22,711 nt of DNA from a virus: IMG/VR virus record IMGVR_UViG_3300025789_000167, positions 1 through 22,711 of that record. One strand, written 5' to 3'. Every line of letters begins with the position of its first letter. Position 1 is the stretch's first letter. Positions 462 to 21,392 of this stretch are shown one piece after another. Both the position numbers and the translations under genes were made by a program. The notes beneath the pieces are model-generated. The model saw nothing but the letters and a program-made list of their open reading frames with translations. It had not been told where the DNA came from and ran no database searches.

Positions 462-496
462 TAAAATTATTTTCTACCTAAAAATAAATAAATTCA

Positions 497-1000
497 ATGT
501 TTAAAAGAATAGTGTCATTTGATTTCGACGGAACCTTAATTCACACGCCTACTCCTGAAACTGGAAGAGTAGAATGGGAACATAAAACCGGATTGAGTTT
601 TCAAGGTAGGGGATGGTGGGTAAATCCAGAATCTCTGAATACCAAGATATTTTACCCTGCTTTAAACCAGTGGGTTTTCAACAAATTTGATGAATATCAA
701 TCCGATCCTTCTAACTATGTTTTTATTGCAACAGGCAGATTGAAAAAGTTAGAGCCTCATGTAAAAAAGGTTTTAGATTTACATAATATTAAATGTGATG
801 TTTATTGTAACACAGGTGGAGATACATTTAACTTCAAATGTTATTTATTTGAAACATTAATCAATGTAAATCCTAAAGCTGAAGAGCTTATTATGTTTGA
901 TGATAGACATGAACATTTAGATAGATTTGTAGAATGGGGAAAGAAACAACGTATTAAGGTAACTATTATTGATGTAATTAACAAAAAACAAATGTTATAA
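497..1000 (+). CDS. HAD-superfamily phosphatase, RNA-repair-like (HAD_SAK type)
   Basis: 167 residues carrying the four HAD motifs: DFDGT (D9, D11, nucleophile and acid/base), ATGR (T79), K114 in FNFKC, and the acidic pair D135/D136 in MFDD. The segment GWWVNPESL near residue 39 is characteristic of the HAD group named after 'Swiss Army Knife' RNA-repair proteins. The family suggests a phosphatase acting on small phosphorylated substrates, perhaps RNA or nucleotide ends, comparable in role to the phosphatase half of T4 polynucleotide kinase; the substrate is inferred only. It is the first gene of a tight plus-strand trio, with a 1-bp gap to the next gene, and is preceded by a TAnnTTTG promoter. 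The start is the only in-frame ATG ahead of DFDGT. Confidence 0.8.
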   Translation: MFKRIVSFDFDGTLIHTPTPETGRVEWEHKTGLSFQGRGWWVNPESLNTKIFYPALNQWVFNKFDEYQSDPSNYVFIATGRLKKLEPHVKKVLDLHNIKCDVYCNTGGDTFNFKCYLFETLINVNPKAEELIMFDDRHEHLDRFVEWGKKQRIKVTIIDVINKKQML

Positions 1001-1001
1001 A

Positions 1002-1244
1002 ATGTTACCTAAGATATCTGAACATATGTGGTGTTACCATTGTGAACATGAATGGGAAACCGATGATTATTATAATTGTAAGGAATGTCCTAATTGTAAA
1101 CAGGAACCTATACATATTATGAGAACAAGCTCAACTGGATATGTATATGCTTGGATGTCGAAGCATAAAAATGATATTAGAGATAAAAAAATAGATTCAG
1201 TTTTAATTTACTCTAAAGGAAAAAAAATAAAATTTAATAAATAG
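1002..1244 (+). CDS. Small zinc-ribbon protein
   Basis: 80 residues. C11-x2-C14 and C29-x2-C32 (with an additional C26) form a likely zinc knuckle pair. The remainder is basic and ends in a lysine-rich tail. It follows the HAD gene by one base and precedes the ClpS-like gene by six, so it is almost certainly co-transcribed with them. No enzymatic motif is visible. Small ribbons of this kind often bind nucleic acid or a partner protein, but the function here is unknown. Confidence 0.65.
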   Translation: MLPKISEHMWCYHCEHEWETDDYYNCKECPNCKQEPIHIMRTSSTGYVYAWMSKHKNDIRDKKIDSVLIYSKGKKIKFNK

Positions 1245-1250
1245 TGATAT

Positions 1251-1532
1251 ATGCCAACGATAACTAAAAAACAACAACAAACTGATTTACAAGATAAACT
1301 TAATTCACCATTTATTTTGTGGTTACACAATGATGATTATAATTCTTTTGACTGGGTAATTGAGTGTTTAATTAAAGTTTGTGGTCATGAACCAGAACAG
1401 GCTTCTCAGTGTGCTCATCTTGTTCACTTCACTGGTAAATGTGATGTTAAAAGAGGTGATAAAGAGACTATTACTGAAATGTATAAGAAGTTAAAAGGTG
1501 CTAATCTTACTGTTAGTATGGAAAATGCCTAA
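1251..1532 (+). CDS. clpS: ClpS-like N-degron adaptor
   Basis: 93 residues with the ClpS core: the HNDDY signature (N27-D28-D29) after a first beta strand, the helix FDWVIECLIKVCGH, a helix ending in AHLVHFTGKCDV (H59), and the C-terminal SMENA that matches the SMEEA-like end of bacterial ClpS. In bacteria ClpS binds the N-terminal domain of ClpA/ClpC and delivers proteins with destabilising N-terminal residues for degradation. NDD and the conserved His line the N-degron pocket, and all are present. No Clp ATPase or protease is encoded here, so it would have to work with the host machinery. It is last in its operon; its stop abuts, with no gap, the convergent stop of the terminase C-half gene. 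Confidence 0.85.
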   Translation: MPTITKKQQQTDLQDKLNSPFILWLHNDDYNSFDWVIECLIKVCGHEPEQASQCAHLVHFTGKCDVKRGDKETITEMYKKLKGANLTVSMENA

Positions 1533-3785
1533 TTATAATTTAAAATTACCACCAAAATACTGATTACCGTTATTATAAACATGATTTTGAAATTGTTTCA
1601 TCATCTTTCTTTGTTTATTGATATTAATAATAGATGAATAGTCAGCTGCTTCTGAAAAGTCTGCTTCTTTCAAGATAAGATTAAAATAGTTTCTTGTTTC
1701 TGTATCTAAGAGAGTAGCCGCATAATCTTCACACATCTGTCTAAAATCATGTTTAGCAAAAACACTTGAGGCATTAACTAAGGACATAGTGGTATCATCA
1801 TTTCCGATATCTGCTGCATATCTTATATTTCCAGCAGATGTGATATGTTTAACAAAGGTAGTAATCTCTCTAATGTTATCTTCGTTTGTAATTACAAACT
1901 TCTTTTTATCCATAGCATCTTGATATTCTTTAACTAGTAAATTTTTATTATCTGTGATTTTTAATCCAACTCTTTCTTCAATAGCATCTGCTTTGTGTTT
2001 ATACTTGAAGAATATACTTGAGCCATAGTTGTTATTACTATCAAATACGTGTGGTAAATGAGCTAAAAATTCATTTCCATAGTTATTTAATTCCAATACC
2101 GCTTTAAAATTATCATAGTTTAGATACTCAAATACCAATAGGTAAAAGATTTCTGCAAGTTGTTTAACTGATACTAAGTTAGACCTAAACAGTCCTATTT
2201 GAACTAAAGTAAAGAAGTCACTCATATTAGTATAAGTATGCTTTTGTAGTTCAATAATTTCCTTAGACTTTGGTGCAAGTTTAAATATATTAATAATTGA
2301 ATAGTCTTGCCCCAAACCTTCTGATATATCGACTGATAGAACGCCTCTTATAATTTTTCTATGTATCGGCATAAACACTTCATCATCGTCAATCCATTTT
2401 AAATCCTTATAAGAGAATTTCAATTTTCTATCAAATTCATAAATTTGTTCACATTCATAATTCTTTTTATTATTTAGTAATCCCTCTATTGTTGCCTCAT
2501 TCAATAATGATCTACTTGAATTAATAAATCTAAGACCATATTCTTGGTTAAATGCATCTTCACCACCTATATCTTTGATTGCTTCTTCTTTCCAGGTTGT
2601 TGTTTCAGAAATTGCTTGAATTGGAACTTCTAATCCATTTGAATCTACAAATTGAAATGCTTTCGCCATTTGGTCACTACAAGCATCATTATTATAAACT
2701 AATATAACATTCTTTTGTGTATCACTATAAAATTTCATTTCAACTTTGGTCAGACTTCCAAATACTTGTTGAGTTTGTTCTAATATTTGTTCTTTAGCAA
2801 CACCATATTCGTGCATTTTATGAGGATTTAGTCTATAATAGGTAACAAATCTTCCAGGAACTTGATACCAGTAAACTCTCATTGCACGGTAGTTACTTCT
2901 TAATGGGTCTCCCTCTGGTCTTTCAGCATCAGTTAATAATCTATAAAATAAATTCATGCCGTTAGGAGTAGAGGTGATAATAATTTTAGAGTTTTCTATA
3001 GCTGATACAGTCGGGAATGCAGCGGTATAGTAAGCTTCAATTATATTGGGTGGAATGTGTGCAAATTCATCCATGTAAAGAAAGTCAATGGTAAAACCAA
3101 TAGCTGGTGTTTTTGTTCTAGCAGAGCTTTTAATTCTACATCCATTATCAAAAATGATGGATCTTTGGTTCCAGTTTTTAATACCAACTTTTAAAAAGAA
3201 TGGTAATTGTATATAGATTGACTTAATTTTATCTATAATTTCTATGGCGGTGTTTGCAATATTTGCCACAATCATAATATTTTTATCATTATTGAATGTG
3301 ATAAAGTGAAGCATGGTGATTGCTGCTGATACTGTGTTGTGACTTAATATACCATTTGTATAATATCTATGATCCTTATGATTAATAGTACTATCAAACA
3401 TAGAAACTTTAAATCCACTATTCTCAACTGATATAACTTTGGATAATCCAATATTGGTTTGAACCTCATTTCCAATTTTCAAATCTTTTACAAATACACC
3501 ATTATGATTTTCATCGAATACTATATGATTATCGGCACAATTTAAATAATATCCATTACTCAACATTAAATAATACTGTCTATATGGCTGTGTAATATGT
3601 ATATCGGTCATTTCTACCCAACCTGAATCTGACTTTACAGATAAATTTAAGTTGGATATTGTATTTAATATTTTTTTATTAATATCATTCTCGTCAATAT
3701 CTACTTTACTATATTCTATCTTTTCTATAACTTCTATTATGAGATATAATATTTTAATTAAATTATTCCTAAAAAAGTTAAACAT
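1533..3785 (-). CDS. C-terminal split-intein half + large terminase C-terminal part
   Basis: 750 residues in two parts. Residues 1-150 are the C-intein: a hydrophobic helix-like lead (1-25), a block B-like CADNHIVF (83-90) followed by FVKDLKIGNEV, then block F/G ending YYTNGILSHN with the catalytic His149-Asn150. Thr151 (codon 3335-3333) is the +1 extein nucleophile. Residues 151-750 are terminase: Walker B LYMDE (D239, E240), TSTPNG (271-276), and an RNase H-like nuclease with D486 (SVDISEGLGQDY), E565 (LELNNYG) and D663/D664 (GNDDT), matching the T4 gp17 layout. An extra block of about 83 residues (313-395) lies between VPGR and WKEEAI. Translation probably starts at M1, because M59 would cut a predicted intein strand. 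The gene overlaps the endonuclease gene upstream by 28 bp and has no promoter motif of its own. Confidence 0.93.
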   Translation of the reverse strand: MFNFFRNNLIKILYLIIEVIEKIEYSKVDIDENDINKKILNTISNLNLSVKSDSGWVEMTDIHITQPYRQYYLMLSNGYYLNCADNHIVFDENHNGVFVKDLKIGNEVQTNIGLSKVISVENSGFKVSMFDSTINHKDHRYYTNGILSHNTVSAAITMLHFITFNNDKNIMIVANIANTAIEIIDKIKSIYIQLPFFLKVGIKNWNQRSIIFDNGCRIKSSARTKTPAIGFTIDFLYMDEFAHIPPNIIEAYYTAAFPTVSAIENSKIIITSTPNGMNLFYRLLTDAERPEGDPLRSNYRAMRVYWYQVPGRFVTYYRLNPHKMHEYGVAKEQILEQTQQVFGSLTKVEMKFYSDTQKNVILVYNNDACSDQMAKAFQFVDSNGLEVPIQAISETTTWKEEAIKDIGGEDAFNQEYGLRFINSSRSLLNEATIEGLLNNKKNYECEQIYEFDRKLKFSYKDLKWIDDDEVFMPIHRKIIRGVLSVDISEGLGQDYSIINIFKLAPKSKEIIELQKHTYTNMSDFFTLVQIGLFRSNLVSVKQLAEIFYLLVFEYLNYDNFKAVLELNNYGNEFLAHLPHVFDSNNNYGSSIFFKYKHKADAIEERVGLKITDNKNLLVKEYQDAMDKKKFVITNEDNIREITTFVKHITSAGNIRYAADIGNDDTTMSLVNASSVFAKHDFRQMCEDYAATLLDTETRNYFNLILKEADFSEAADYSSIININKQRKMMKQFQNHVYNNGNQYFGGNFKL
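3336..3785 (-). other. C-intein (blocks B, F, G) of the split TerL intein
   Basis: This 150-residue segment ends exactly at CAC AAC (His-Asn) before ACA (Thr). It contains block B (ADNH), so the split lies between blocks A and B instead of at the usual endonuclease site between B and F. The YYTNGILSHN ending is typical of phage inteins and, from memory, close to the end of the AceL-TerL C-intein. Confidence 0.9.
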
Positions 3786-4741
3786 TTGTCTATTACACTA
3801 TTTTTATTTTTTCTATACTCAGAATCCCAAACTGTTAGAACTTCAAAGTTATTTTGATTTGCAATATCAATTTTAAACTTATCTTTGTTCCATATTTCTT
3901 TTGATGTCGGACCCTTTTCTTTCAAATAAGGATGTGGCTTATCATATTCATTGAACATAATTGGATTAGCGTGATAATAATCACCATTATATTCAATAAT
4001 TTTTTTTCTTTTCTTGTCACAAAAATCATATACAAAAAATCCTTTTTCTTTTACTGAGATATAAAATTCACTATTCTTTGTAGAGAAGTAAACATCTTTC
4101 AATTCAGAAACATCGTAATTATTTATGATATTATAAAATAGTTCTTGACTAATTTTTGAATATCCACATTTTATATTTCCATTTTCCAATAAATTCTTTT
4201 GCCATAGATGTTGTCTTTCTTTCCATCTTTTCAGTCCTTTTTCCTCACCGTATTTCTCAATACATTTTTCTAAACTAAATGTCCTTTGTCTATTTGATAA
4301 AATTTCTAAGGATTCCTGTTCAGTGAATCCTTTATTTAAATAATATTCCTTTTGTAAGGGTGATACTCTATCTTTCAAAGCTTTTTTAGCAAAGCTTTTT
4401 ACAACCTCATCTTTATCTTCAACTTCTTTATATTTGGTAAAATCTTTTGAAAATGGACTTCTTGACTTTCTTTCCTCTTCAGTAGTTCTACTTTTATGAT
4501 TTGGATTTTTATCACCAACATACATATCACGAAACATTTTTTTATATTTATCATCTCTCATATGCTTGCCCATTTTTTCAGTATCAACTTTTGCCATCAA
4601 TGGCGCACCTGGATATAATTCTTTATATTTCTCAGATGTTATATTGTGATATTTTAGATGTAATCCATATATTCTTTTGGATCTTCTACCACATATACGA
4701 CAGGTTACTACATCATAGTTATCAATTATTTCAAATTCCAT
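3758..4741 (-). CDS. Free-standing Vsr/EDxHD-like homing endonuclease inside the split terminase locus
   Basis: 327 residues. The N-terminus has a Ros/MucR-like C2H2 finger (C14-x2-C17-x10-H28-x3-H32) followed by ITSEKYKELYPG. The middle carries a KYGEEKGLKRWKERQ element (about 163-177) of the sort repeated in phage homing endonucleases. The C-terminal part reads KKIIEYNGDYYHANP (E250, D254, H257) and then VLTVWDSEYRKN, which fits the Vsr-like nuclease core known from endonucleases inserted between split-intein gene halves. It lies 19 bp after the N-half gene stop and overlaps the C-half gene start by 28 bp. A TTTTAATATATA element just upstream overlaps the N-half stop codon. The family role would be to cut intein-less alleles and spread the locus. 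The exact catalytic residues are my inference. Confidence 0.82.
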   Translation of the reverse strand: MEFEIIDNYDVVTCRICGRRSKRIYGLHLKYHNITSEKYKELYPGAPLMAKVDTEKMGKHMRDDKYKKMFRDMYVGDKNPNHKSRTTEEERKSRSPFSKDFTKYKEVEDKDEVVKSFAKKALKDRVSPLQKEYYLNKGFTEQESLEILSNRQRTFSLEKCIEKYGEEKGLKRWKERQHLWQKNLLENGNIKCGYSKISQELFYNIINNYDVSELKDVYFSTKNSEFYISVKEKGFFVYDFCDKKRKKIIEYNGDYYHANPIMFNEYDKPHPYLKEKGPTSKEIWNKDKFKIDIANQNNFEVLTVWDSEYRKNKNSVIDKCLTFLGII

Positions 4742-4754
4742 GGTTTTTTATTTT

Positions 4755-4766
4755 TATATATTAAAA
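4755..4766 (-). promoter_or_regulatory. TTTTAATATATA element before the split-locus endonuclease
   Basis: Perfect match on the minus strand, 13 nt upstream of the endonuclease ATG. It contains the TAA stop codon of the TerL N-half gene (4763-4761). It could give the endonuclease and the C-half gene their own transcript. Confidence 0.5.
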
Positions 4767-5285
4767 TTTTTGGTTCCTGTCTAATAGGTATAGTGCGTTA
4801 TACAATTTAATTTTAAAATATTCTAATAAATTTAGTGGCCTAATCTCCGAAAGAATTTGGTAGTAAAGGATTCCGAATCTATATATTTGACCACTTTTCA
4901 ACTCTATCAACGTATTAAATGAGAAGCATTTCCCAATTTGTCTACTTCCACATAAGATACTGAATCTTCCGTTATGATATAAGTCTAAGATATCTTTTTG
5001 ATATTCTCTTAATTTAATATTATTAATACTTCCATCTTCTGTTTTAACTCGACAATATTTTTCAGCGAAATAATGAATATCTAATTTACATTTAATATAT
5101 TCTTCTATTTCATCATCGATTAAGGCAAAAGTAAGACCACTTCTTCTAACACCGATTTCATTTTTAAACCATGGATTTTGAAACCTTTTAATGATGTATC
5201 CATCGTTAATTTGGTCAGTTATCTCTTGGACATTTTTACTATTGAATATAAATTTCTTTTCTTGAGCTTCTTTTACTGCTGGCAT
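4761..5285 (-). CDS. Large terminase N-terminal part + N-terminal split-intein half
   Basis: 174 residues. Residues 1-119 are the terminase N-terminus, with the Q-motif-like LREYQKDIL (about 92-100) and the start of the Walker A P-loop, CGSRQIGK (112-119). At Cys120 (codon 4928-4926) the sequence switches to an intein block A, CFSFNTLIELKSGQIYRFGI, and the remaining 55 residues end in a hydrophobic, helix-like tail (LLEYFKIKLYNALYLL). There is no terminase sequence after it, so the protein is inactive as an ATPase on its own: its P-loop stops at the catalytic lysine. Joining K119 to Thr151 of the downstream gene restores SRQIGK-TVSAA, as in T4 gp17 (SRQLGKTT). It diverges from the TerS-like gene over a palindromic spacer. 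The ATG at 5285 is used because an upstream extension would run into that spacer. Confidence 0.92.
   Translation of the reverse strand: MPAVKEAQEKKFIFNSKNVQEITDQINDGYIIKRFQNPWFKNEIGVRRSGLTFALIDDEIEEYIKCKLDIHYFAEKYCRVKTEDGSINNIKLREYQKDILDLYHNGRFSILCGSRQIGKCFSFNTLIELKSGQIYRFGILYYQILSEIRPLNLLEYFKIKLYNALYLLDRNQKF
4764..4928 (-). other. N-intein (block A only) of the split TerL intein
   Basis: 55 residues beginning with the catalytic Cys. Only block A is recognisable; the block B TxxH/NxxH motif is in the other half. The hydrophobic end of this piece and the hydrophobic beginning of the C-intein could pair to bring the halves together (inference). Confidence 0.9.
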
Positions 5286-5304
5286 AAAGGAATAGAATCA
5301 TTTT

Positions 5305-5316
5305 CAATATATATTG
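5305..5316. promoter_or_regulatory. Palindromic bidirectional element between TerL-N and TerS-like genes
   Basis: CAATATATATTG is a perfect 12-bp palindrome. Each strand reads TTTTnCAATATATA-like toward the gene it faces: start codons lie 19 nt away on the minus strand and 17 nt away on the plus strand. It resembles the TTTTAATATATA element used elsewhere and is a plausible shared promoter. Confidence 0.4.
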
Positions 5317-5333
5317 TAAAATTAGATTCTCCA

Positions 5334-5945
5334 ATGAGTGATAAGAAAGAGCAGAAAATAAATGAGCTTCAAAATGAGTTTGAAAGAATTCAAGATGGGT
5401 CAAAAGATATAGATATTTCAAAGTATCTGGCTAAAAAAGATGATCTACCTGATTTAGGAGAAATTCAAATTTATGACTATGATGCTGACTTAACGCAGTC
5501 TAGTGAGCAAGCTATGGATTTATTAGAGAGTCTAGTAGATTTATATTTAGGAGACGCTAAAAAGGTAGTTGAGCATCCTTATATTAAAAATAAAATGAAA
5601 GAAGATGCTTTAGTTTATGCCGAGACTATATTTCTTTCTAAAATGACAAGAAAAAACTTCCTTACACAACTAAGACAGGTTGATAACGGCGATAATAGTG
5701 CGAGAATGCATGAAGTTATAAACCAAACCGTATCACAAATTAGAGAAAACTCTAAATTCTCATCTACACAAAGAACTGAGCTCGAAAAGTTCTATAAAGA
5801 AACTAGAAAAGATTTAGGTTTAAATGAGTTATCCAATGTTGAATCTATACAAAGTGAGACTGAAAAAGAGAAAGAAGATACTAAAATTATGGATTCAAGG
5901 GGCTTGAATGATATGATTGATAAATATTTGAAAAATAAAGGATAA
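5334..5945 (+). CDS. Probable small terminase subunit (T4 gp16-like)
   Basis: 203 residues from the ATG at 5334 (MSDKKEQ). The in-frame extension upstream to 5178 is antisense to TerL-N and is rejected. The body is almost all helical: an acidic N-terminal region with DLGEIQIYDYDADL, a helical core (SLVDLYLGDAKKVVEHPYIKNKMKEDALVYAETIFLSK, in part), then QLRQVDNGDNSARMHEVINQ and a charged helical tail. This plan (flexible head, central oligomerising helices, flexible tail) fits T4 gp16, which regulates DNA packaging by TerL. The call rests on that plan and on its position, divergent from TerL. Its stop abuts the convergent HAD-like gene with no gap. Other structural roles remain possible. Confidence 0.55.
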   Translation: MSDKKEQKINELQNEFERIQDGSKDIDISKYLAKKDDLPDLGEIQIYDYDADLTQSSEQAMDLLESLVDLYLGDAKKVVEHPYIKNKMKEDALVYAETIFLSKMTRKNFLTQLRQVDNGDNSARMHEVINQTVSQIRENSKFSSTQRTELEKFYKETRKDLGLNELSNVESIQSETEKEKEDTKIMDSRGLNDMIDKYLKNKG

Positions 5946-16348: not shown

Positions 16349-18046
16349 ATGAATTTAGAAGTATTTAAAAACTCTGACCCAACTGGTAAAATGTCTCGCG
16401 AGACATTTGTAATAAAAAACTATACAGAAGAGTATGATTATATCATAAAATTTTGCCAACAACATAATTTGGAAGATTTACCTTTTAAACAAAAAATATA
16501 TCATGCTATTAATAATATATCTAATATAGTTTTATGTAAGAATCCAGATTGTAATAACTCCGTTAATTATAAAAATTCAACCATTGGATATTATGAATAT
16601 TGTAGCGTTAGATGTATTTCTTCAGACCCGAATATTAAAAAAATAAAACGAGAAAAATCGATTGCTAAATTTGGAACAAAAACGCCAGCTGAGTCTGAAA
16701 TTATTAAAAATAAAATAGTAAAAAGTAATAATGAAAAATATGGTGGTAATTCACCGATGTCTAATAAACTAATACAATATAAATCTAAAAAAACATTATT
16801 GAAAAATTATGGCGTTGATAGTCCATCTAAAAGTGAAGAAATTTTAAGCAAAAGAATTAAATCATTTAAAAATAGTGGTTATAAAGAATCCTATAAAAAG
16901 ACATCATTAGAAAAATATGGAGTTGAACATCCATGGATGAATAAGGATATTCATATAAAATCAATTGAAAAAATAAAAATAACCAAAAATAATTTATTAA
17001 AAGAATTGGTAATTAATAAATTAAATAGTCAAAATGATGAACTATTGGATATAGATTATGATAAAAGAATAATTAAGGCAAAGTGTAAAAATGGACATAC
17101 TTATACTATAAATAGGCATATGTTATATAGCAGAAATAAATTAAATACTATATTATGCACAATTTGTAATCCAATATATTCCGGGATATCTGGTATGGAA
17201 GTTTCGTTGTTACATCATATCAAACAAGTTTATCAAGATGAGATTCTATCAAATGAGAGGATCTTAAATGGAAAAGAAATAGATATTTATTTACCTAAAT
17301 TAAAATTGGGATTTGAATTTAATGGATTGTGGTGGCATTCGGAGGAAAATAAACCAATTAATTATCATATTGATAAATATGATGAAGCAAAATCTTTAGG
17401 AATTGATTTAATCTTTATATGGGAAGATGACTGGTTATATAAACAAGAGATTATCAAATCTATTATTAATAATAGGATACAGGCTAATAAGGATAAAATA
17501 TACGCCAGGAAATGCGAAATTAGAAATGTATCTGCTAAAGATTGTAGAGATTTTCTTGAAGAAAATCATATACAGGGATATGTTGCTTCAAAATATAAAT
17601 ACGGATTATATTATAAAAATGAATTAGTTAGTTTAATGACTTTCGGAGAATTAAGAATTCCAATGGGATTTAAAAAAGAAAATAATGTATTTGAACTAGC
17701 TAGATTTTGCTCTAAATTAAATATAAATGTAGTAGGTGGTGCACAAAGATTATTCAAACACTTTTTAAAAGAAGTTAATTCAAAGAAAATTATTTCATAT
17801 TCTGAAATAAGTAAATTTAGTGGTGATTTATATTCCAGTCTTGGATTTGAATTTGAATCAATTTCAAATCCTAATTATTATTGGGTTATAGATGGTGTTA
17901 GGTTTCATAGGTATAATTACAGGAAAGACCTTTTAATTAAAAGAGGATATGATAAAAATAAAACAGAGGTTCAAATTATGACAGAAGATATGGACTCTTT
18001 TAGAGTATGGGATTGTGGACAAAGAAAGTGGGTTTATAACAATTAA
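16349..18046 (+). CDS. EDxHD/Vsr-like homing endonuclease with C-terminal DUF7487-like domain
   Basis: 565 residues. Layout: a treble-clef-like Cys4 finger (C63-x4-C68...C85-x3-C89); four spaced YG-type repeats, KFGTKTP, KYGGNSP, NYGVDSP and KYGVEHP (residues 108-195), probably DNA-reading; a second ribbon (C246, H250, C270-x2-C273); the nuclease core KEIDIYLPKLKLGFEFNGLWWHSE (309-332) through IFIWEDDW (355-362); and a C-terminal domain from about residue 395 (ENHIQGYVASKYKYGLYY, ELARFCSKLNINVVGGAQRLFKHF). It is a paralogue of the 525-residue gene at 19815-21392. It follows the sheath gene as a free-standing gene, not inside it. A 20-bp perfect palindrome lies in codons 14-20. Expected function: cutting of phage genomes lacking the gene at this locus. 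Confidence 0.85.
   Translation: MNLEVFKNSDPTGKMSRETFVIKNYTEEYDYIIKFCQQHNLEDLPFKQKIYHAINNISNIVLCKNPDCNNSVNYKNSTIGYYEYCSVRCISSDPNIKKIKREKSIAKFGTKTPAESEIIKNKIVKSNNEKYGGNSPMSNKLIQYKSKKTLLKNYGVDSPSKSEEILSKRIKSFKNSGYKESYKKTSLEKYGVEHPWMNKDIHIKSIEKIKITKNNLLKELVINKLNSQNDELLDIDYDKRIIKAKCKNGHTYTINRHMLYSRNKLNTILCTICNPIYSGISGMEVSLLHHIKQVYQDEILSNERILNGKEIDIYLPKLKLGFEFNGLWWHSEENKPINYHIDKYDEAKSLGIDLIFIWEDDWLYKQEIIKSIINNRIQANKDKIYARKCEIRNVSAKDCRDFLEENHIQGYVASKYKYGLYYKNELVSLMTFGELRIPMGFKKENNVFELARFCSKLNINVVGGAQRLFKHFLKEVNSKKIISYSEISKFSGDLYSSLGFEFESISNPNYYWVIDGVRFHRYNYRKDLLIKRGYDKNKTEVQIMTEDMDSFRVWDCGQRKWVYNN
16389..16408. repeat. Perfect 20-bp palindrome in 5' coding region of the endonuclease
   Basis: AAATGTCTCG followed directly by its reverse complement, with no spacer. 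It encodes KMSRETF-like residues near the start of the protein and is GC-rich at its centre (CTCGCGAG) in a very AT-rich gene. It could be an operator, or a protein-binding or cleavage site. Confidence 0.7.
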
Positions 18047-19814: not shown

Positions 19815-21392
19815 CTATTTTTTTTTATATGTAAATTTTAAATTCCCACTATCATAAATTTTGTCTATACCTCTTTCTGACATAATTTCAAATTCAGTTT
19901 TTTCTTTATCATATCCTTCTTTTACCAAAATATCCTTTCTATAATTGAATCTATTTTTCCTAATTCCATTAACTACATAATAATAATTTGGTTGAGTAAT
20001 TCCATCCATACTAAATCCCAGCCTTCTATAAAGATTTCCATTTGACCAACATCTATCAGCATAACTTATTACTAAATTAGGATTATACTTATTTTTGAAG
20101 TATTTAAATATTTTAGAAGCCCCTCCGGTAATACTAAAATTCAATTTATTACAAAATCTTAAAAGTTCATATTGATCTTCCCTCTTCGTTTGTCCCAAAG
20201 ATTTTCTTAAAGAACCAAATGTCATCAAACTAACCAATTTATCTTTATAATATAAACCGATATTATATTTTGAAACTACACTCCCTTGTATATGATTTTC
20301 ATCAAGAAATAATTTAGTATCATTAAATGATACTTCCTTTACTTGACACAGCCTAGCCCAAATTCGATTGGATTTGCCTAATAGATTATTTATTCTTGAT
20401 TCAACAATTGATCTTTTATATTTCCAATCATCTTCCCAGATATGTATTAACTGAACACCCTTTTCTAAACAAATATTAGTTTTATTAACATGATAATTCT
20501 TATCTTTATATTTATCAGAGTGCCAATAGACACCATTAAACTCAAATGCAATTTTAGATTCAGATAAATAAATATCTAATTCCATTCCAATTAATGTCCT
20601 ATCATTTTTGATTACTTGATTATTATAAATAGAAGATATGTAATCATATAGTTGGTTTTGTGCATCAGACTCATTATTAATTGGATTACAAATTGTACAA
20701 ATAGTATTGTTGTTATTTATTCTATCATTTAAAGTATTTTTATGTATTTCAAATTGGTGTTTATTTTTACATATTAACTTATAAATAGATGTATCTACTA
20801 ATTCGACGAACTTAATATTATATTTACTTACCTTATCAGTTAGATATAAAATTAAATTATCTTTCTTTTTTTGATTTAAATTTTTAGTTTTTTCCTTCAT
20901 TATTATACTCAACTTATCTCTAACATCTTGTTTTTGTGATAAATATTTAACACCAAATTTATTTAAATTAGTATTTTCTACTTTTCTTTTAGTCTCTTCT
21001 AATTTTGATATATTTTCAACATTATATCTTTCCATTATAGACTTTTTATAAATTTCCTGAACTTTTGTATCCTTCATTGGATTATCTACACCATATTTAA
21101 CAAAACAAGTTTCTTTTCTTTTTTGTTTAATCGAAGGGTCATTGGATAAACAATAAGTTGAGCAATATTTTCTATATCCCTTTGTTATACTGATAAAATG
21201 AACATTTTTTCCACAATAACAATTTGGTGAATTATCCAATGAATGTATATGTAAATATAATTTTTCTTTCCAAGAAATATCGAGATAAAAAAGGCTATTA
21301 ATAAAAGAGTGAAAAGTAGAGAAGTTTTCACTTATCCACTTTTCACTTTTATTTTTATTTTTATCTGATAATATCTGTTCTATATAATCCAT
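19815..21392 (-). CDS. EDxHD/Vsr-like homing endonuclease, paralogue of the sheath-side one
   Basis: 525 residues with the same order of parts as the gene at 16349-18046: Cys4 finger (C58-x-C60...C77-x3-C81), YG-type repeats (KYGVDNP, RYNVENI, KFGVKYL; 99-150), second ribbon (C208...C232-x2-C235), nuclease core MELDIYLSESKIAFEFNGVYWHSD (270-293) with IHIWEDDW (316-323), and the C-terminal DUF7487-like domain (ENHIQGSVVSKYNIGLYYKDKLVSLMTFG, LLRFCNKLNFSITGGASKIFKYF, RLGF, NYYYVVNG). It starts 31 bp after the stop of the tail tube gene. A one-mismatch TTTTAATGTATA element lies 7 nt before the ATG. As a free-standing gene beside a conserved tail gene, it probably cuts the homologous site in related phages. 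Confidence 0.85.
   Translation of the reverse strand: MDYIEQILSDKNKNKSEKWISENFSTFHSFINSLFYLDISWKEKLYLHIHSLDNSPNCYCGKNVHFISITKGYRKYCSTYCLSNDPSIKQKRKETCFVKYGVDNPMKDTKVQEIYKKSIMERYNVENISKLEETKRKVENTNLNKFGVKYLSQKQDVRDKLSIIMKEKTKNLNQKKKDNLILYLTDKVSKYNIKFVELVDTSIYKLICKNKHQFEIHKNTLNDRINNNNTICTICNPINNESDAQNQLYDYISSIYNNQVIKNDRTLIGMELDIYLSESKIAFEFNGVYWHSDKYKDKNYHVNKTNICLEKGVQLIHIWEDDWKYKRSIVESRINNLLGKSNRIWARLCQVKEVSFNDTKLFLDENHIQGSVVSKYNIGLYYKDKLVSLMTFGSLRKSLGQTKREDQYELLRFCNKLNFSITGGASKIFKYFKNKYNPNLVISYADRCWSNGNLYRRLGFSMDGITQPNYYYVVNGIRKNRFNYRKDILVKEGYDKEKTEFEIMSERGIDKIYDSGNLKFTYKKK

Follow-up and report, generated by a model that had tools for sequence, protein, structure and literature searches.

The genome fragment of a bacterial virus analyzed here, the complete IMG/VR record IMGVR_UViG_3300025789_000167 (22,711 bases, 27% G+C; hereafter the window), carries a gene for the large terminase subunit (TerL) that is broken within its Walker A loop. 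Each of the two halves, terL-N and terL-C, bears one part of an intein at the break. By far the best explanation of this arrangement, and one that its sequence features make very probable, is protein trans-splicing of a split intein. The phage would make a T4 gp17-type large terminase as two polypeptides, whose N-terminal intein part (IntN, with Cys1) and C-terminal part (IntC, with a terminal His-Asn) would associate and fold into a Hint domain. The bond after K119 would then shift to Cys1, Thr+1 would attack, and Asn150 would cyclize, which are the standard steps outlined in passages of PMC3443213. The ligated exteins would form a single TerL of 719 amino acids (aa) with an intact SRQIGKT loop. 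A previous sequence-only reading had proposed that DNA packaging in this phage depends on trans-splicing; our analysis supports this as the best reading, and packaging would presumably require the reaction.

The locus consists of three successive genes on the minus strand: terL-N, a gene for an endonuclease-like protein, and terL-C (Table 1). Re-reading the DNA reproduced exactly the coordinates and sequences that the sequence-only reading had given for both terL open reading frames (ORFs), as well as its junction of SRQIGK with TVSAA and its total of 719 residues (119 + 600). Its gene list was right for the two terL ORFs and missed the endonuclease-like ORF lying within the same span, the 3' end of which overlaps terL-C by 28 nucleotides (nt). 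Inspection by eye revealed A/T-rich leaders and no clear Shine-Dalgarno sequence upstream of any of the three genes (5286-5300, 4741-4760, and 3786-3800).

Table 1. Coordinates of terminase, intein, and endonuclease features in the window and in related records (carets mark breaks)
Feature	Record or locus	Position	Strand	Description
terL-N ORF	window	5285..4761	-	174 aa: N-extein 119 aa, IntN 55 aa
terL-N extein	window	4929..5285	-	119 aa, C-terminal ...CGSRQIGK; first half of Walker A loop
Walker A GK codons	window	4934-4929	-	
IntN	window	4761..4928 (stop codon included)	-	55 aa, starts CFSFNTLIEL; Cys1 and block A; tail looks helix-like (by eye)
Homing-endonuclease-like gene	window	3758..4741	-	327 aa; ROS/MucR-like finger aa 10-54, C-terminal Vsr-resembling part
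terL-C ORF	window	3785..1533	-	750 aa: IntC 150 aa, C-extein 600 aa
IntC	window	3336..3785	-	150 aa: helical N-terminal part (aa 2-44, structure model), block B CADNH (aa 83-87), blocks F/G ...HRYYTNGILSHN
terL-C extein	window	1533..3335	-	600 aa; Thr+1 completes Walker A
Thr+1 codon	window	3333..3335	-	second half of split GK^T junction, from sequence
Walker B FLYMDEF	window	3083-3063	-	in terL-C extein
ITSTPNG	window	2978-2958	-	terL-C extein motif
SVDISEG	window	2336-2316	-	candidate nuclease motif, terL-C extein
LELNNYG	window	2096-2076	-	candidate nuclease motif, terL-C extein
DIGNDDTT	window	1811-1788	-	candidate nuclease motif, terL-C extein
Free-standing endonucleases	window	16349-18046; 19815-21392	+; -	phrog_3339 homing endonuclease, DUF7487
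First terL gene	SCTP-2	429356-429748	-	ends LGK^C
Second terL gene	SCTP-2	256428-257321	+	from IntC via HN^T up to LLY^C, then intein-like sequence, at Walker B
Third terL gene	SCTP-2	215993-218077	-	intein-like start ending VSQ^CDEFAF
Short TerL-like paralogue	L345, LR756501	699.9-701.0 kb		394 aa
Short TerL-like paralogue	L091, LR756500	6532-7350		272 aa
Short TerL-like paralogue	L262, G020	466-1374		302 aa
Short TerL-like paralogue	L087, G003	1357-2127		256 aa

The host protein was recognized from both halves. terL-N matches phrog_5989, terminase large subunit (E 1.6e-17), with no Pfam match in a profile search, and terL-C matches Pfam Terminase_6N (E 3.4e-15) starting at residue 151, along with several TerL phrogs. 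T4 gp17 aligns with the ATPase portion of the C-extein (E 1.5e-24) and only weakly with its nuclease part; for L073, a relative without the interruption, the alignment with gp17 runs through SRQIGKT (E 1.1e-43). These alignments place the break between two Walker A residues, Lys and Thr. Since this lies inside the phosphate-binding loop, neither half contains a complete ATPase site; this agrees with the claim that neither gene alone encodes a working ATPase, with Walker A split at GK^T and Walker B present in terL-C only. Judged from its motifs, the protein has the ATPase-then-nuclease layout of TerL, with Walker A complete only once the halves are joined. The roles of the C-extein motifs are presumed ones, taken from T4 gp17. 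A second, contiguous, long intein lies in the nuclease part of TerL-C in three relatives (L059, L062, and L080), after C-extein residue ~517; the same intein is suggested in L060 and L063-L069 by matches limited to residue 515-517.

The intein parts carry the residues expected at both splice junctions. Position 1 of IntN is Cys, one of the two residues (Cys or Ser) that open a Hint domain, and IntC ends in TNGILSHN, followed by TVSAA, in keeping with a C-terminal His-Asn and a Cys, Ser, or Thr at +1. By sequence, IntC matches two inteins of solved structure, VidaL (3.5e-07) and Cat (8.3e-05), and an AF2 model of IntC gave five PDB matches at E<=0.001, all of them inteins, with VidaL the best (1.1e-4). 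IntC is thus predicted to adopt the Hint fold, at modest model confidence and with low TM-scores. With its split between blocks A and B and its short IntN and long IntC (55/150 aa), the intein is an atypically split one; the published examples given in excerpts of PMC10189870 and PMC11766414 have IntN parts of 15-37 aa, shorter than that of the window. We also considered whether helices at the split ends could be zippers that evolved for the split. This idea was not supported, because the contiguous inteins L130 and L160 hold the corresponding stretches unbroken (by eye).

Viral loci were scanned with the C-extein as query, so that the intein had no influence on the outcome; among the best 80 of 92 loci, 58 are uninterrupted at GK-T, 21 fractured there, and 1 truncated. 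terL in the window is therefore a fractured two-ORF gene with a split intein and with uninterrupted homologues. Further scans used an IntC alignment (best 80 of 391) and an endonuclease alignment (70 loci), and merging identical IntC DNA left 81 distinct IntC sequences, the window included. Of these, 55 were sorted as split with an endonuclease match between the halves, a class that includes two mis-sorted loci (L121, with a different endonuclease type on the opposite strand, and L150, with a remnant). Another 11 are split and adjacent without such a match, 1 is inverted, 2 are contiguous (194 and 197 aa), and 12 have no N part in the locus. Within this last group, L115 has an IntC identical to that of L116/L117, which do have an N part; L142 and L167/L168 are dispersed; L245 is clpA/B-like; L170 and L184 are unassigned; and L119, L138, L145, L171, L174, and L176 have <0.8 kilobases (kb) upstream. 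Cys directly follows GK in 69/69 distinct relatives with an N part, IntN is 42-72 aa long in the split relatives, and the IntC end and +1 residue read HN^T in 73, HN^S in 3, SN^T in 2, and LN^T in 2 of the 81, with 1 cut off.

That the window is metagenomic would allow for an assembly or sequencing artefact that joined unrelated pieces, a concern already raised by the sequence-only reading. Two other IMG/VR contigs (L002 and L003) carry every part of the locus at 100% identity to the window, and in 21/80 loci terL breaks at this same codon junction, so we dismiss chance or misassembly. The 81 distinct relatives come from many samples, and the cultured phages Atu_ph07 and SCTP-2 have a fractured terL as well. 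An artefact is hardly credible.

The ratio of nonsynonymous to synonymous change (dN/dS) was estimated by the Nei-Gojobori method (NG86) on 13 chosen pairs, keeping unsaturated values; several dS values, being above 1, are rough. The ratio was 0.05-0.28 for IntN in 10/11 pairs (0.47 in L057/L064, with very few changes), 0.10-0.25 for IntC in 11/12 pairs (0.39 in L113/L118), and 0.06-0.38 for the endonuclease in 12/12 pairs. For the terL genes it was 0-0.24 in 11/11 pairs (terL-N) and 0-0.18 in 10/11 pairs (terL-C; 0.38 in L205/L212). These low values indicate that the intein pieces and the endonuclease are maintained as working protein.

The two chains could instead remain unligated, the intein pieces merely clamping the P-loop together. 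According to PMC10448857, a homing endonuclease has split a ribonucleotide reductase gene that still functions as two peptides. A clamp would not need the residues of splicing, which are retained here (Cys1 in 69/69, HN followed by T or S in 76/81 distinct sequences), and the cut falls inside the nucleotide-binding loop. Because the catalytic splice residues are kept, we disfavor a clamp and consider it unlikely, with ligation by trans-splicing the preferred account.

In several relatives, the two halves are not neighbors. In L043, the halves are on opposite strands, 3.2 kb apart, and both have intein parts. In G014 (152 kb), the N part is at ~1.8-2.3 kb (+) and the C part at 24.5-26.8 kb (-), and in G015 (271 kb), the N part is ~67 kb away from the C part; both N parts end GK^C. 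The 735-kb genome LR756501 has its halves 12.4 kb apart on one strand. Salicola phage SCTP-2 (MF360958.1, 440 kb) has three unlinked genes annotated as terminase large subunit (L105, L095, and L104; Table 1), the third with a further contiguous intein (Pfam Intein_splicing) ahead of Terminase_6C. Against the PDB, the second IntC of this phage, at the start of the third gene, gave no Cat match, the best being a weak one to gp41-1 (E 0.037). From these flanks, the SCTP-2 terminase is apparently encoded in three pieces; one break is at Walker A and the other at Walker B, each flanked by intein-like sequence. In cultured Agrobacterium phage Atu_ph07, the terL halves are adjacent, with Ser1; a word search of the main text of its paper did not find "intein".

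Halves on opposite strands or far apart exclude cis splicing of RNA or protein in those relatives, and for the unlinked or inverted halves of L043, G014, G015, LR756501, and SCTP-2 only trans joining or a two-chain enzyme is possible. This bears on joining at the RNA level by a group I or II intron, in cis or in trans, for which precedents exist in passages of PMC10448857: terL of phage ICP1 is spliced as RNA, and phage terL introns occur beside homing endonucleases. Rfam gave no match, either for the whole window at gathering scores or for 3200-5400 at E<=1. The additional coding sequences have open frames, are conserved, and show purifying selection at the protein level, and cis splicing is excluded in the relatives with inverted or unlinked halves. 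An RNA intron therefore has a very slim chance.

Alternatively, terL could be decaying after replacement by another terminase gene elsewhere, and related large genomes do contain a second TerL-like ORF (G003, 256 aa; G020, 302 aa; LR756500, 272 aa; and LR756501, 394 aa). The sequence-only reading had named a contiguous terL elsewhere as fatal to its proposal. We found none intact in eight long records of relatives (152, 195, 201, 271, 276, 345, 348, and 735 kb), where the search brought up the two halves; all virus contigs in it fall short of a 90% completeness rating, and the window phage is covered by 22.7 kb with one match. G004, G007, G015, and G021 show only the two terL halves. Shorter TerL paralogues are present in 3/8 of the long records, without a usable Walker A and without the nuclease part, for which they are too short; in these ATPase-only proteins, the Walker A Lys is replaced (SRQMGIT, SRQMGIS) or the whole loop is lost. 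They could possibly serve as decoy or regulatory motor subunits. Decay also runs against the low dN/dS of both terL halves, and overall we regard replacement as quite improbable, if slightly less so than RNA splicing. A functional, trans-spliced terminase accounts better for these data.

The gene between the halves belongs to a family in which Pfam detects a ROS/MucR finger in 7/8 aligned members and DUF559 in 3/8; the 327-aa protein of the window, taken alone, falls below the Pfam cut-off for the finger. A model of the C-terminal part matches 3r3p (I-Bth0305I, E 0.03) and 1cw0 (Vsr, E 0.036), with probability 0.99 each. The likeness to I-Bth0305I and Vsr lies in this C-terminal fold; the N-terminal ROS/MucR-like finger is a difference from them. 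The type may be that of the Vsr-like (EDxHD) endonucleases. Such an endonuclease would most likely cut terL alleles that lack the intein, at the same P-loop codons, which are conserved, and the whole cassette (IntN, endonuclease, and IntC) would then spread by repair.

Between some halves, all that is left of the endonuclease gene is remnants from the 3' end (tblastn: L071, E 4e-5; L150, E 9e-25; L153, E 4e-7), and these three loci keep the intein ends GK^C and HN^T. L157/158 may hold a remnant fused to IntN (E 0.045, weak), with an SN end, and tblastn found no remnant in L118 and L148. Elsewhere, the gap is occupied by a phrog_3339-type endonuclease, either on the opposite strand (L116, L121, L122, and L144; open frames of 575-589 aa) or on the same strand (L172 and L173), with L116, L144, and L172 scanned against the phrogs. 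The gap endonucleases of all six loci match the two free-standing ones of the window (best match 33-42% identity). Remnants and substitutions together indicate that the split has outlived and swapped its endonuclease.

Pairs of filled and empty alleles show that the cassette is mobile. In the near-identical phages L055 (empty) and L059 (filled), the flanks are 98.5% and 96.4% identical, and the L059 cassette sits exactly between the Lys and Thr codons. The flanks of L057 and L062 are 97.7% and 99.7% identical, whereas their cassette ends have diverged (58% in the first 150-nt window and 55-66% in the last six windows), with windows in the 5' part of the endonuclease reaching 96%; alleles have therefore been exchanged. 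In L135/L137, the dS of the cassette is 0.17-0.29, much lower than the 0.56 of terL-N or the 1.71 of terL-C; the host genes had therefore already diverged when the cassette moved.

Several observations count against trans-splicing or against the assignments on which it is built. The sequence-only reading had reported intein blocks B, F, and G in terL-C; all are present, and in block B (TxxH) the His is kept while the usual Thr is replaced by Ala (ADNH; CatC has SDNH). The structure model covers IntC alone, without IntN, and its confidence is modest (pLDDT 71.6, pTM 0.46, 11 sequences), with TM-scores of 0.35-0.42 for the first five intein structures. In a PDB profile search with IntC, the best whole-sequence E-values belonged to Tako8, a designed protein, with no single stretch passing; inteins came next. 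Two distinct IntC sequences end in SN and two in LN, and the IntC parts of LR756501 (L090 4563-5000) and LR756500 (L091 4560-5000) end NLN and SSQ rather than SHN, so that the splicing chemistry may differ in these two phages. For the endonuclease, 3r3p and 1cw0 rank only third and fourth behind two mitoribosomal chains, no PDB match reached E<=0.001, and a profile search found 3r3p at E 0.16. Finally, the window phage is known from a 22.7-kb fragment.

Split-intein terL genes are already known: excerpts of PMC11766414 give an IntN of 25 aa for AceL-TerL and 37 aa for GOS-TerL, together with the Cat consensus, and GOS-TerL has Ser1/Cys+1 (PMC10189870), as opposed to Cys1/Thr+1 with an IntN of 55 and an IntC of 150 in the window. 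Like these, terL in the window is broken by a naturally split intein with a short IntN and a long IntC; its IntC is detectably related to CatC, and natural Cat relatives likewise carry an endonuclease between the halves. We collected such relatives by searching IMG/VR with the letters of CatC (best 80 of 125). A pattern derived from example loci, F.VEFE with C or S next, fitted 59 of these 80, with Cys every time and an IntN of 29 aa in 58/59. In the loci inspected, the C part begins again at CEFLGS. An ORF of GIY-YIG type (simple pattern) was found in 63 of the 80, lying between the halves in the 6 loci inspected and confirmed by Pfam for L264. By eye, this site maps near NQEYG, residue 263 of the window C-extein. 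The insertion site is thus VEFE^C in the natural Cat relatives, on which this comparison rests rather than on AceL or GOS themselves, and GK^T in the window. Because the Cat relatives split terL elsewhere, around another endonuclease, we count the window system as a differing form of a known kind, distinguished by its site, piece lengths, and endonuclease pairing. CatC matches include 14 Escherichia among 88 records, and in the cultured T4-like Escherichia phage HY03 (NC_031047.1, L344 1507-4359), terL shows a third type of break, at Walker B (IYIDE^C...HN^CAF), around a small endonuclease, phrog_15427.

In 2009, Dassa et al. reportedly described split inteins in fractured genes together with a new family of endonucleases, likewise with a host gene in two ORFs and an endonuclease between them. 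In the window family, the intein is divided between its blocks A and B, and some relatives have separated halves. VidaL is the best PDB match of the window IntC by both sequence and fold. In PolB16 OarG (PMC10189870), which sits in a DNA polymerase gene, the split lies close to the N end and gives an IntN of 15 aa and an IntC of 168 aa. Compared with VidaL and PolB16 OarG, the window IntN is longer and has a helix-like tail, and its host is terL rather than the DNA polymerase of PolB16. At the same GK^T junction, four Ackermannviridae (LIMEstone1, Kuja, VAP7, and ZQ1) have contiguous terL inteins with a related IntC; these differ in forming one ORF, with an intein of 159-179 aa that presumably splices in cis. 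The announcement of Klebsiella phage Magnus mentions a terL intein (PMC6763660). In an IntC tree of 88 rows, with few columns and many open forks, the four Ackermannviridae inteins group with SCTP-2 (support 97/76), and contiguous L130 is nested among split forms (95/80). This suggests that L130 may be a re-fusion of a split form. No description of terL split at GK^T was found in the literature searched, of which coverage was partial, with the founding papers outside it.

The same family occurs in other host genes. In a 302-kb contig (L245, 1674-5906), the interrupted gene is ClpA/B-like, its break reads GTGK^C...HN^T, and a related endonuclease separates the halves; in a contig of a Clostridia metagenome-assembled genome (L255, 4152-6086), the break is at NVGK^C...SHN^S. 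The C half of the latter is DnaB-like (Pfam DnaB_C, E 1.1e-14), and its N half has no Pfam match. From the motifs, the factor common to the TerL, ClpA/B-like, and DnaB-like hosts is the P-loop. We consider it probable that these inteins form a mobile split-intein family that uses interchangeable endonucleases and is specialized on phage P-loop ATPases (TerL, ClpA/B-like, and DnaB-like helicase), at their Walker A GK^T/S codons. Several huge-phage lineages, the 735-kb genome among them, would then possess a packaging motor that is a stable multi-gene enzyme, its catalytic loop existing only after trans-splicing of the products of unlinked genes, three of them in SCTP-2.

These loci add Walker A to the break points seen for terL, and the GK^T split recurs in other very large phages, in some with the halves far apart in the genome. 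If splicing occurs, these phages could start to package DNA only once two (or three) proteins, each made on its own, had met and been ligated, which would put the genome-packaging motor under a natural AND gate. The dozens of natural P-loop split inteins offer material for protein engineering, and the filled and empty allele pairs, together with the cultured phages, provide settings for work on homing and trans-splicing in vivo. Beside terL, the window also contains a gene for a ClpS-like adaptor (1251-1532, +; Pfam ClpS, E 3e-15), and similar ORFs lie near terL in L043, L084, and L086 (by eye).

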